53,642 bases of DNA, from the NCBI GenBank assembly GCA_017963105.1, contig JAGCTY010000097.1:1-53642 (forward strand), written 5' to 3'. This document shows, piece by piece, positions 11,979 to 26,341 of the stretch. The notes beneath the pieces are model-generated. The model was not told where the DNA came from. It did not search any database and saw only the letters and a list, made by a program, of their open reading frames with translations. Origin of the DNA: Lentisphaeria bacterium (GTDB taxonomy: Bacteria; Verrucomicrobiota; Lentisphaeria; Victivallales; UBA1829). The translations under genes and the position numbers were made by a program. Every line of letters starts with the position of its first letter. Within the stretch, counting starts at the first letter, position 1.

Positions 11979-12090
11979 GCCGTCGTCCGCCGGACCCTGT
12001 GCGATGGAATTGCGTGAACCGAGTCAGGTTGGGAACAAAGCAGCTCTAAGCGTTAAGACCTTGCGCGTAGGCCATCTGTCGGGCGGCGGC
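11979..12090 (+). ncRNA. ffs: Bacterial signal recognition particle RNA (4.5S type)
   Basis: The conserved SRP Alu-less hairpin tip is clear: GTCAGGTTGGGAACAAAGC followed by AGC, matching the Ffh-binding GUCAGGU...GGAA...AAGCAGC core with a GGAA-type tetraloop region. The ends pair: the first 11 bases (GCCGTCGTCCG, 11979-11989) form a continuous helix, with G-U pairs, with CGGGCGGCGGC (12080-12090). A T-rich tract (TTTTCTTTT) follows directly, consistent with termination. The length of about 112 nt fits the small bacterial form. It lies in the 146 bp gap between accD and rph. Confidence 0.9.
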
Positions 12091-22389: not shown

Positions 22390-24684
22390 TCAGGCTTCCT
22401 GTTTCACGCACATCACGTGGTACACGCCGTCGATGGTTTCGGTGCCCTCGGTGACATGCTCGAACCCGGGGAACTCGGCGTCCCACGTCTCCAGCTGTTT
22501 CAGGTACTTGATCTGCGGGCAGTCCGCACCGCCGAAGACCTCGCCGGACATCAGCATCGGGATCCCCGGCGGATACGGGATCACGGAGTTCGCGCTCACG
22601 CGGCCTTCGAGCTTATGCGACGGCACGAGCTCGACGTTTCCGGTCACGATGTGCCGGTACGCTTCGCGCGGCGTGAGTTTCTGGCGCGGCAGTTCGCCGA
22701 ACGCGCGGTCGAGCATGGCTTCCGGCGTCTTCTCGCGGATGTAGCGGAACATGCGGTCGGAGAGCGTGCGGACGCCGTCCTTCCCGTAATGCTCCGGATA
22801 CGCGGCGGCGAGCTCGGGGAAGACCTCGGCGACGGGCGTGTCGGCCTCGTAGAGGCGCTTGAAGTTCAGGAGCGTGTTCAGGAGCGTGCCCCATTTGCCC
22901 TTCGTGATGCCCATGGAGAAGAGGAACATGATCTGGAAGTCCGTGGTGCGCGTGGGCACGATGCCCTCGCGGTACAGATAATACGACACGAGCGCAGCCG
23001 GGACGCCGCTCTTCAGGATCGTGCCGTCGTCGCCCATGCCGGGCGAAAGGATGCTGACCTTGATCGGGTCGAGCATGACCCAGTTCTCCTCCAGCCCGGA
23101 GAACCCGTGCCAGGACGCGCCGTTTTCGATGCGCCAGCAGCGCTGGTCTGTCGTCAGGAGCTCGCGCGGGGCGTCGGCGAAGGCGAAGGAATGCCCGGTC
23201 TTGAAGTCCGTGACCGTGTCGGCGTTCCACGGCCTGAAGAACCAGCTGCCGTCCTTTTCCGCCTGGCGGCAGATGCGGGCGAGCGCCTGCCGGAAGTCGA
23301 CTGCCTCCTCGATCACCTCCTGCGTGAGGGAACGTCCGCAGCGCGCCATCATGGCCGCGGAAATGTCGTTCGAGGCGCAGATGGCATAGAGCGGGGACGT
23401 GGTGGCGTGGAGCATGTACGCCTGGTTGAAGCGGTCGAACGGGACCGGGTGGCGCCCCTCGCGGACATGGATGTAGGATGCCTGCGACAGCGCGTTCAGG
23501 AGCTTGTGTGTGGAGTGCGTGGCGAACACGGTCGCGCCCTTGTGATCCGCCGGATCGCCGCGCATGGCGAAATGGTCCGCGTACATCGGGTTGAACCGGG
23601 CGTAGCCGTACCATGCCTCGTCCATATGGATCACGTTGACGGAGTGGTTGAGCTCGGCCTCGACCTTCGCGCTGTTGTAGCACAGCCCGTCGTAGGTGCA
23701 GTTCGTAACGACCGCGTAGGCGGGGCGGCCTCCCTCGGGCGCGATCGGGCTGGCGGCGATCTTTTCGCGGATCGCCTCGGGCGTCATCTCCGAACGGTGG
23801 ATGGGGCCGATGATGCCGTAGCGGTTGCGCGTCGGGATCATGTAGACCGGGGCGGCCCCGGTCAGGATGAGGCCCTGTTCGATGGATTTGTGGCAGTTGC
23901 GGTCGCAGACTGCGATGTCGGCGTCGGTCAGCACGCCCTGGATCACGGTGCGGTTGCTGCCGGAGGTGCCGACGACCACAGAGTACGACCGGTGTGCGCC
24001 GAATGTCTTCGCGGCGAACTCCTCGCTCTTTTCGAACGCGCCCTCATGGTCGAGCAGGGACCCGATGCTGCCGCGTTCGATGCCGGTGTCCGTGCGGAAG
24101 AGGTTCTCTCCGTAGAAGTCGAAGAATTTCTTGCCTTCCGGCGACTTGGTGAAGCCGACGCCCCCCTGGTGGCCGGGCGCGGCCCAGGAGTATTCGTGGC
24201 TGGATTCGTTGTAGTCCCAGATCGCCCGCATGAGCGGCGGGAGCAGATTTGCGCGGAAGCGGCAGATCGCGGCTTCGATGCGCCCGGCGATGAACCGCGG
24301 GCTGTCCTCGAAGATCCAGACGAACTCGTTGGCGAGCGCCATCAGCGATTCGCTGAGGTTGCGGCTGGTCCCGGCTCGGTCGGCGAGCAGGAAGACCGGG
24401 ACGCCCGCCTGTCGTTCACGGACGTGCCGCAGGAAATCGAGCGTGCGGCGTTCGGCGGCCTGTTCGAATTCCATGTCGGTGGCCACGAGGAACGCGTCGA
24501 GGTCCATGTTCGTGGCGGCGATCGGGAACGCCTCGCACACGCTCTGCGCGTACTGCACGGCGATGTCCCGGTCGGCGAGTGCGTCGGCCAGTCGCACGAC
24601 GGCGTTGTGCAGGGTGCGGCTGGATTCGGAAAGCAGATCCTCCACGATGAGGACCTGTCTGCCCTGAAGTTCTGTGTTGTTCAT
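22390..24684 (-). CDS. adiA: Biodegradative arginine decarboxylase (AdiA type)
   Basis: PLP enzyme converting arginine to agmatine with proton consumption. 764 residues, matching E. coli AdiA (about 755) along its whole length. The N-terminal wing domain (LIVEDLLSES...VRLADAL), EYSWAAPGHQGGVGFTKSP, VVGTSGSNRTVIQGV, VIHMDEAWYGYARFNP, the PLP-lysine motif FATHSTHKLLNALSQ (Lys394), RFNQAYMLHATTSPLYAIC and RTTDFQIMFLFSMGITKGKW are near-identical to AdiA, so arginine is the likely substrate rather than lysine or ornithine. AAGGAGG precedes ATG 24684. It follows the antiporter gene by 50 bp; together they form an acid-resistance pair. Confidence 0.95.
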   Translation of the reverse strand: MNNTELQGRQVLIVEDLLSESSRTLHNAVVRLADALADRDIAVQYAQSVCEAFPIAATNMDLDAFLVATDMEFEQAAERRTLDFLRHVRERQAGVPVFLLADRAGTSRNLSESLMALANEFVWIFEDSPRFIAGRIEAAICRFRANLLPPLMRAIWDYNESSHEYSWAAPGHQGGVGFTKSPEGKKFFDFYGENLFRTDTGIERGSIGSLLDHEGAFEKSEEFAAKTFGAHRSYSVVVGTSGSNRTVIQGVLTDADIAVCDRNCHKSIEQGLILTGAAPVYMIPTRNRYGIIGPIHRSEMTPEAIREKIAASPIAPEGGRPAYAVVTNCTYDGLCYNSAKVEAELNHSVNVIHMDEAWYGYARFNPMYADHFAMRGDPADHKGATVFATHSTHKLLNALSQASYIHVREGRHPVPFDRFNQAYMLHATTSPLYAICASNDISAAMMARCGRSLTQEVIEEAVDFRQALARICRQAEKDGSWFFRPWNADTVTDFKTGHSFAFADAPRELLTTDQRCWRIENGASWHGFSGLEENWVMLDPIKVSILSPGMGDDGTILKSGVPAALVSYYLYREGIVPTRTTDFQIMFLFSMGITKGKWGTLLNTLLNFKRLYEADTPVAEVFPELAAAYPEHYGKDGVRTLSDRMFRYIREKTPEAMLDRAFGELPRQKLTPREAYRHIVTGNVELVPSHKLEGRVSANSVIPYPPGIPMLMSGEVFGGADCPQIKYLKQLETWDAEFPGFEHVTEGTETIDGVYHVMCVKQEA

Positions 24685-24734: not shown

Positions 24735-26213
24735 TCAGATCTTGAGCTTGCCGGTGGCCGCCAGTACGACGGCGATGATCGCGATGATGACCATGGCGAT
24801 CGCGCAGGCCGCCTCGATGGGCGTAAACGACGGTTTGCTCTTCGCTGCGGCGTCCGTCGCGTCCTCGCGGGCCTGGGAACATGCCCGGATGTACACCGGG
24901 ATGCCGACCACGAGGAAACAGAACGCCATCAGCAGGTAGGTGAGCCCGGCGGCGTAGATCATCCAGAGCGCGTACAGCGTGCCGGCCACGCCGCAGAGCA
25001 TCGCGAACGGGCGCTTCACGGGCAGGTTGTTCGGGTATTCGTCCGTCATGCAGAGTTTCCACAGGTACGCCGTGCAGGCGAGGTACGGCGGCAGGATCAT
25101 CACGGACGTGATCGAGAGCATCGAGTTCCAGGCGTTGTTCTCGAAGTAGACGAAGATCATGGTGAGCTGCATGAGGCCGCTGGTGACCCAGAGCGAGGCG
25201 GACGGGCTTTCATGCGCGTTCGTGTGCTTGAAGAACCGCGGGAACGTGCCGTCGAGCGCGGCGGCGTAAGGGATCTGCGCGATCATGATCGTGAACGCCA
25301 GCCAGCTCGTCATGAGCGCGATGATCACGCCCAGGTTCATCACCCAGCCGCCCCAGGAGCCGACGACCTTCGTCAGGATCGGCGCGGTCGACGGGTTTTC
25401 CAGCGCGGCGAGGTGTCCCTGCGACATATAGCCGAACGGCAGCATGGAGAGCAGGAAATAGATCGTGAGGCAGGCGAAGAAGCCGAGCACGGTCGCCTTC
25501 CCGACGTCGCTCTGGCTTTTCGCGCGGCCGGAGATCACCACGGCGCCCTCGATGCCGATGAATGCCCACAGCGTGACCAGCATGGTCGACTTGATCTGGG
25601 GCAGGATGCCGCCCAGCGGCTTGTCCGCCAGCGCCTTCGAGAACGCGTGTCCCCAGAAGTCGAACTTGAACGTGTCGAACCGGAAGACGAACAGCATCAC
25701 GAGGATGAACAGGATGATCGGGACGAGCTTGCAGATCGTGCCGACCACGTTCAGGAACGCCGCCTGCTTCACGCCGCGCAGCACGAGGAAGTTCATGAGC
25801 CAGATCACGCAGGAGCCGCCGATGATCGACGGGATGTTGTTGCCGTGCGTGAACGTGCCCGGGAAAAAGTAGTTGAGCGCGTCCATCAGCAGCACGGCGT
25901 ACGCCACGTTGCCGAAGACGTTGCACAGCCAGTAGCACCACGCCATCTGGAACCCGGCGAACCTGCCGAACCCGAGGCGGGCGTAGGCGTAGATGCCCGT
26001 GGTGGCGTCCGGCCGCGCGTCGGCCAGGATCCGGAACGTGTTGGCCAGGAAAAAGATGCCGACGCCGGTGATGATCCATGCGATCAGCACGGCTCCTGCC
26101 CCCGCCCCCTGCGACATGTTCTGCGGCAGGCTGAATATGCCGCCTCCGACCATGGCGCTGACGACCAGTGCCGCCAGGCTCATCACGCCAAGTTTCTTCG
26201 ATTGATCTCCCAT
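24735..26213 (-). CDS. Basic amino acid antiporter (APC superfamily, ArcD-like)
   Basis: Inner-membrane exchanger of 492 residues with about 12-13 helices. Start ATG 26213 (MGDQSKKLG) has ribosome site GGGAGGGA six bases upstream; the frame is open for 78 more codons, which cover the promoter and leader. Family hallmarks: LVVSAMVGGGIFSLPQNM in helix 1, ILADARPDATTGIYAYAR, LVLRGVKQAAFLNVVGTICK and LWAFIGIEGAVVISGRA. These match the arginine:ornithine antiporter branch (ArcD-like) rather than the shorter AdiC. Pairing with adiA suggests arginine/agmatine exchange in acid conditions; that substrate call is inference. Confidence 0.88.
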   Translation of the reverse strand: MGDQSKKLGVMSLAALVVSAMVGGGIFSLPQNMSQGAGAGAVLIAWIITGVGIFFLANTFRILADARPDATTGIYAYARLGFGRFAGFQMAWCYWLCNVFGNVAYAVLLMDALNYFFPGTFTHGNNIPSIIGGSCVIWLMNFLVLRGVKQAAFLNVVGTICKLVPIILFILVMLFVFRFDTFKFDFWGHAFSKALADKPLGGILPQIKSTMLVTLWAFIGIEGAVVISGRAKSQSDVGKATVLGFFACLTIYFLLSMLPFGYMSQGHLAALENPSTAPILTKVVGSWGGWVMNLGVIIALMTSWLAFTIMIAQIPYAAALDGTFPRFFKHTNAHESPSASLWVTSGLMQLTMIFVYFENNAWNSMLSITSVMILPPYLACTAYLWKLCMTDEYPNNLPVKRPFAMLCGVAGTLYALWMIYAAGLTYLLMAFCFLVVGIPVYIRACSQAREDATDAAAKSKPSFTPIEAACAIAMVIIAIIAVVLAATGKLKI

Positions 26214-26219
26214 AAAAAT

Positions 26220-26296
26220 CCCTCCCGGTTGCGATTGTTTTTCTAGACCGGGAAGGGACCTGCGGACGCGGTCGAATGCGGACGCCCCCTCCCCGG
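26220..26296 (-). promoter_or_regulatory. Leader with mutually exclusive hairpins over the antiporter ribosome site
   Basis: Reading the minus strand from the predicted transcript start, segment 1 CCGGGGAGGG (26296-26287) can pair over all 10 bases, one of them G-U, with segment 2 CCCTTCCCGG (26257-26248). Segment 2 can instead pair over 9 bases with segment 3 CCGGGAGGG (26228-26220), which contains the Shine-Dalgarno sequence. Pairing 1:2 frees the ribosome site; pairing 2:3 hides it. The loop between 1 and 2 holds a direct repeat GCGTCCGCA. Not a riboswitch class I recognise. Confidence 0.6.
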
Positions 26297-26313
26297 ATGT
26301 CCGTTGTTCGTTT

Positions 26314-26341
26314 AACATAGCACAGCTTGGCGGGATTTCAA
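26314..26341 (-). promoter_or_regulatory. Promoter for the antiporter-adiA operon
   Basis: On the minus strand: -35 TTGAAA (26341-26336), 16 bp spacer, -10 TATGTT (26319-26314). The predicted start near 26307 gives a leader of about 90 nt that contains all three pairing segments. Confidence 0.7.

Follow-up and report, generated by a model that had tools for sequence, protein, structure and literature searches.

The 5' leader of an mRNA carrying an antiporter gene and the arginine decarboxylase gene adiA in a Lentisphaeria genome contains three short segments which can form two mutually exclusive helices, one of which includes the Shine-Dalgarno sequence of the antiporter gene, and this two-helix arrangement is non-random. 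The probability that the leader is a kinetic translational switch, that is to say a bistable and genus-specific one with no recognized aptamer, can be put at roughly one half. The stretch of DNA analyzed (53,642 nucleotides; genome G000, contig C18), which is called the window below, has rumen Lentisphaeria MAGs as its nearest named relatives. To our knowledge, gene regulation has been little studied in the phylum to which the host belongs. If the proposed reading is correct, it would mean that an arginine decarboxylase/antiporter operon is controlled at the RNA level by a minimal three-segment design with no obvious aptamer. The features discussed are listed in Table 1.

Table 1. Genes, predicted promoter and leader segments of the antiporter-adiA operon (positions in the window)
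Feature	Position	Strand	Basis
Predicted sigma-70-like promoter, TTGAAA-16-TATGTT, extended -10 (TG)	26314..26341	-	Consensus scan, 9/12; position kept in congeners
P1, small predicted 5' hairpin (CGGAC...GTCCG), not present in all leaders; segment 1 lies in its loop and next to it	26279..26303	-	Predicted folds
Segment 1, CCGGGGAGGG; pairs with segment 2 (putative anti-sequestrator) and is nearly a copy of the Shine-Dalgarno sequence	26287..26296	-	Sequence, pairing, core GGGAGGGG invariant in 11 leaders
Segment 2, CCCTTCCCGG; partner of either segment 1 or the Shine-Dalgarno sequence	26248..26257	-	Pairing; pyrimidine-only core in 11 leaders
Segment 3, CCGGGAGGG; Shine-Dalgarno sequence of the antiporter gene, just 5' of the ATG at 26213	26220..26228	-	Sequence and conservation
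Basic amino acid/polyamine antiporter gene (TIGR00905), ATG at 26213	24735..26213	-	NCBIfam and Pfam
Arginine decarboxylase gene adiA (NF011603)	22390..24684	-	NCBIfam equivalog above cut-off

The antiporter gene is followed by adiA on the minus strand, and its divergent neighbor is mraY. The adiA product scores 1189 bits against the arginine decarboxylase equivalog of NCBIfam (cut-off 1167) and the antiporter passes the NCBIfam model for the basic amino acid/polyamine antiporter subfamily, which bears out the operon assignment made in a preliminary description of this DNA. The antiporter falls below the NCBIfam cut-offs of both the AdiC equivalog (172 vs 574 bits) and the arginine-ornithine antiporter equivalog (514 vs 591 bits), and it is therefore the gene pair which suggests that the operon may serve for arginine/agmatine exchange and acid resistance. 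The sole Rfam match obtained in the window was the bacterial small SRP RNA (RF00169) at 11988-12084 on the plus strand.

Read on the minus strand, segments 1 and 2 form a helix (1:2) of 10 contiguous base pairs, and segments 2 and 3 one (2:3) of 9, each with one G-U pair among them; the duplex energies predicted in the window are about -24 and -22 kcal/mol, respectively. The GGGAGGG sequences of segments 1 and 3 are nearly identical and both invariant, and the two segments, being near copies of each other, are rivals for segment 2. This layout, with its helix lengths, their mutual exclusion and the Shine-Dalgarno sequence in segment 3, had already been proposed from the window alone: the coordinates and pairings proved to be exact, and the layout is kept in all 11 congeneric leaders. 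The one additional structure in the leader is the hairpin P1, whose 5' arm has been removed by a deletion in L004 and L008 and has diverged in L010. The core of segment 1 persists in these three of the 11 sequences, and P1 is thus dispensable.

Transcription is predicted to start near 26307, giving a leader of about 94 nt. Since the predicted promoter lies upstream of segment 1, all three segments belong to the predicted transcript; a start downstream of 26287, which had been named beforehand as an observation that would tell against a switch, finds no support in the sequence. A 29-nt near-copy of this promoter (TTGAAATCCCG...GTGCTATGTTA) is present elsewhere in the same genome (L118, G000:C46:46088-46116, minus strand), and G003, G006, and G012 also contain matching copies similar to it. 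The gene following the near-copy encodes a 704-aa protein resembling an FG-GAP/VCBS-type repeat protein, and its leader is unrelated. The occurrence of the near-copy 5' of an unrelated gene supports the identification of TTGAAA-16-TATGTT as a promoter, and the unrelated leader makes the motif look like an ordinary one; for the same reason, co-regulation of the two genes via the shared motif was rejected.

Two helices as strong as these were present at none of 297 other predicted gene starts, taken heuristically from the window and from 380 kb of the congener G005, and in none of 1000 dinucleotide shuffles in which the Shine-Dalgarno sequence was kept fixed. Helix 2:3, which sequesters the Shine-Dalgarno sequence, is less unusual by itself, as 2 of the 297 starts have one as strong and the shuffle p is 0.009. 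When the two helices were considered jointly in five orthologues, shuffle p values of 0.002-0.022 were obtained.

The leader and the antiporter gene are present in 11 of the 13 congeneric genomes (including that of the window); in the other two, G007 and G010, neither was found. A covariance model of the leader gave one match in each of the 11 congeners (E 4e-12 to 3e-30). Since this model was built from eight of the 11 sequences, the strength of the matches is partly due to its construction, which is not so of their single occurrence. Nothing convincing was detected elsewhere in these 11 genomes, and the idea of a regulon was rejected because the antiporter locus is the only convincing match in each of them. 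The antiporter is also present in other genera of the family, usually along with adiA, where its leaders consist of unrelated sequence and do not match the covariance model, and where similar triads upstream of it are not enriched (p<0.05 in 3 of 44 leaders). Weak matches to the model within the family (E 0.003-0.09) were inspected at four loci and discarded, as they align poorly and none of them is the antiporter locus. The element therefore appears to be restricted to one genus of rumen Lentisphaeria. The leader of G005 is 87% identical although no mraY was detected within 4 kb on its upstream side, so that the element travels with the operon rather than with mraY. As regards the gene content, no adiA was found in the stretch around the antiporter at L013, L014, L017, and L022, where the partner or the role of the antiporter may be different.

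The core of segment 1, GGGAGGGG, is identical in the 11 leaders, and where the core of segment 2 varies, it does so by C/U exchange or by indels, and the pairing with G is preserved. Neutral evolution was simulated 3000 times on a tree based on the four-fold sites of the antiporter gene, using an approximate rate model; none of these runs left the core of segment 1 unchanged, and a pyrimidine-only segment 2 was obtained with P values of 0.001-0.012. No other part of the leader is as constrained as segment 1. The congener which has diverged most is L010 (49-62% identity with the others at four-fold sites); its spacers and P1 arms have diverged, its segment 1 is intact, and its altered segment 2 (CCCTTTCTCCGG) can still pair with both partners (-19.2 and -19.0 kcal/mol). 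Judging from the duplex energies, both pairings are possible in all 11 congeners; in an alignment of eight sequences, 85.9% and 87.1% of the cells are paired for the two helices. The CC:GG end pairs are lost in a subclade.

The covariation of both helices which the preliminary description had looked to for support did not emerge from this alignment: no pair in helix 1:2 shows a two-sided change, and the single cell with such a change in helix 2:3 is matched as often by shuffles. Likewise, when segments were swapped among orthologues, the pairs belonging to the same leader were not significantly better matched (p 0.07 and 0.21). As the G-rich sides of the helices (segments 1 and 3) are invariant, the covariation test has little power here, and the sample of ten relatives from a single genus is a shallow one.

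Predictions of the folding of the nascent RNA gave helix 1:2 in all 11 leaders once segment 2 had emerged, with a probability of 0.52-1.0. When the whole leader was folded together with 50 nt of coding sequence, helix 2:3 was predicted to dominate in nine of the 11 (only 0.6 in L003), and L009 and L010 are predicted to keep 1:2 at equilibrium, so that the sequestration of the Shine-Dalgarno sequence is not universal. The energy difference between the constrained folds ranges among the orthologues from -5.6 to +4.7 kcal/mol; like all the energies given here, these values are predicted under standard conditions and are only a guide in the case of GC-rich RNA. Helix 1:2 is strong in every orthologue, including those with a weak 2:3. 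At L038/L009 (G002:C36), a GC-rich insert of about 60 nt, which can form a hairpin, lies between segments 2 and 3 and is predicted to tip the balance fully toward 1:2.

The most economical reading of these predictions would be a kinetic switch which is open early and closes later unless helix 1:2 is held. Segment 1 might first lie in a small hairpin as the RNA polymerase leaves the promoter, and would pair with segment 2 when the latter emerges, leaving the newly made Shine-Dalgarno sequence free for the first ribosomes to load. The finished leader would be more stable in the 2:3 form in most orthologues, and the message would therefore drift to the OFF state, unless 1:2 were held or refolding slowed down. 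Ribosomes on the message, pauses of the RNA polymerase, a protein, an ion, or a metabolite could have such an effect. The antiporter, and perhaps the decarboxylase downstream, would as a result be translated in a burst or during a conditional window. The sequences themselves show which pairings are possible, that these are conserved, that the element is linked in a single copy to this operon, and that a promoter motif lies at a suitable place; we infer that both forms exist in cells and act on translation, and the order of the ON and OFF states and any signal are likewise inferred. pH, arginine, and agmatine as the signal are guesses based on the identity of the genes, and the more specific proposal that the leader is a lineage-specific sensor of acidity or of arginine/agmatine, in which a three-segment kinetic switch with a Shine-Dalgarno look-alike as its anti-sequestrator opens an arginine-dependent acid-resistance operon, is decidedly improbable. 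Among the 11 natural variants there are leaders whose hairpin is deleted, one that carries an insert, and others in which the predicted equilibrium is reversed, and together they provide a ready test set for control by co-transcriptional folding.

None of the Rfam covariance models matched the leader at the gathering thresholds, and only a chance match on the opposite strand was obtained up to E 5. The families thus failing to match include yybP-ykoY/alx and speF, in agreement with the earlier remark that no known riboswitch or pH-responsive element could be recognized here, and our search of the literature on adiA leaders and anti-anti-Shine-Dalgarno sequences yielded nothing bearing on this element. 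The leader is a candidate for an already known kind of RNA control rather than for a new kind. It resembles the alx pH-responsive element (PRE) of Escherichia coli in that the 5' UTR of a transporter gene is able to adopt two exclusive folds, in which the ribosome-binding site is either hidden or exposed; the active fold of the PRE is the less stable one, and it requires co-transcriptional folding and polymerase pausing (PMC3874183). However, the present leader has only about 94 nt and three segments, and no Rfam model matches its coding strand even at E 5; the stimulus of alx is alkali, whereas acid would be the expected one for an arginine decarboxylase. The nearest decarboxylase leader is that of Salmonella speF (orf34), which likewise precedes an amino-acid decarboxylase/polyamine gene and in which the RNA has alternative structures and the ribosome-binding site is sequestered. 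Its control works through Rho, RNase G, and the translation of orf34, in which arginine codons follow one another (PMC6386406); speF requires this leader ORF, whereas none is conserved here. In the mRNAs of type I toxins (aapA3 of Helicobacter; hok), an upstream anti-Shine-Dalgarno sequence pairs with the Shine-Dalgarno sequence, and sequential co-transcriptional hairpins compete (PMC6733600). In these mRNAs, however, the transient fold hides the Shine-Dalgarno sequence, whereas the transient fold predicted here would free it, and the gene present here is a metabolic one.

The main rival to the kinetic switch is a constitutive tuning hairpin, in which helix 2:3 sets translation at a fixed lower level and segment 1 either is a by-product of the purine-rich sequence or serves to set the balance in the absence of switching. 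The predicted dominance of 2:3 in 9/11 full leaders, the lack of covariation in 1:2, and the wide variation of a balance which would be fixed in each orthologue are consistent with this explanation, but it does not account for the exceptional constraint on segment 1, which has no other evident role, or for the fact that 1:2 is strong in all the orthologues, even where 2:3 is weak; we regard it as unlikely, although deserving serious consideration. Segments 1 and 3 might also be twin purine-rich sites at which a trans-acting factor docks. This factor would be a protein that binds RNA, or else the 30S subunit, to which segment 1 would offer a standby or a decoy Shine-Dalgarno sequence; the pairing of segment 2 would then be a secondary matter. 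The invariance of the two near-identical sequences and the position of segment 1 in or beside a predicted loop would be in line with this idea, which is nevertheless quite improbable, as it leaves the pyrimidine-only segment 2 unexplained and CsrA, which is the best known of such factors, is encoded in 0/13 congeneric genomes. Control by CsrA itself is disfavored for the latter reason, the control genomes having given positive results.

Three other explanations have far less to recommend them. That the repeated G-rich and C-rich blocks are a DNA-level operator binding a transcription factor just 3' of the promoter is suggested by the presence of direct and inverted repeats within about 95 bp of the predicted transcription start, but one of these repeats is the Shine-Dalgarno sequence itself, the spacing between the blocks varies (with the deletion in L004 and L008 and the insert in L009), and the element occurs only once per genome, which makes an operator extremely improbable. 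We would give as little credence to a leader peptide steering the folding as in speF, or to a longer N-terminus of the antiporter: an ATG directly follows segment 1 in L004 and L008, and an open frame extends upstream of the ATG in the window, but most of the 11 leaders lack a start codon after segment 1, no short ORF is conserved, and stops and indels cause the open frames upstream of the ATG to range from 9 to 84 aa. Transcription attenuation, with 2:3 and a T run as an intrinsic terminator and 1:2 as the antiterminator, is very unlikely, though marginally less so. In the window, the 2:3 stem is indeed followed by ATTTTT just 5' of the ATG, but the T run is not conserved, which disfavors a terminator or attenuator (TATCTC, GCTTTT, GTTACC, or GTTATTTT is present in the relatives), the loop is long, and the terminator scan gave no call. 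Upstream of another gene in another genus (L131, 1098-1006, minus strand; G018:C104), GCCTCCTG...CAGGAGGC is followed by TTTTTT and an ATG; this hairpin could either mask a Shine-Dalgarno sequence or end transcription.
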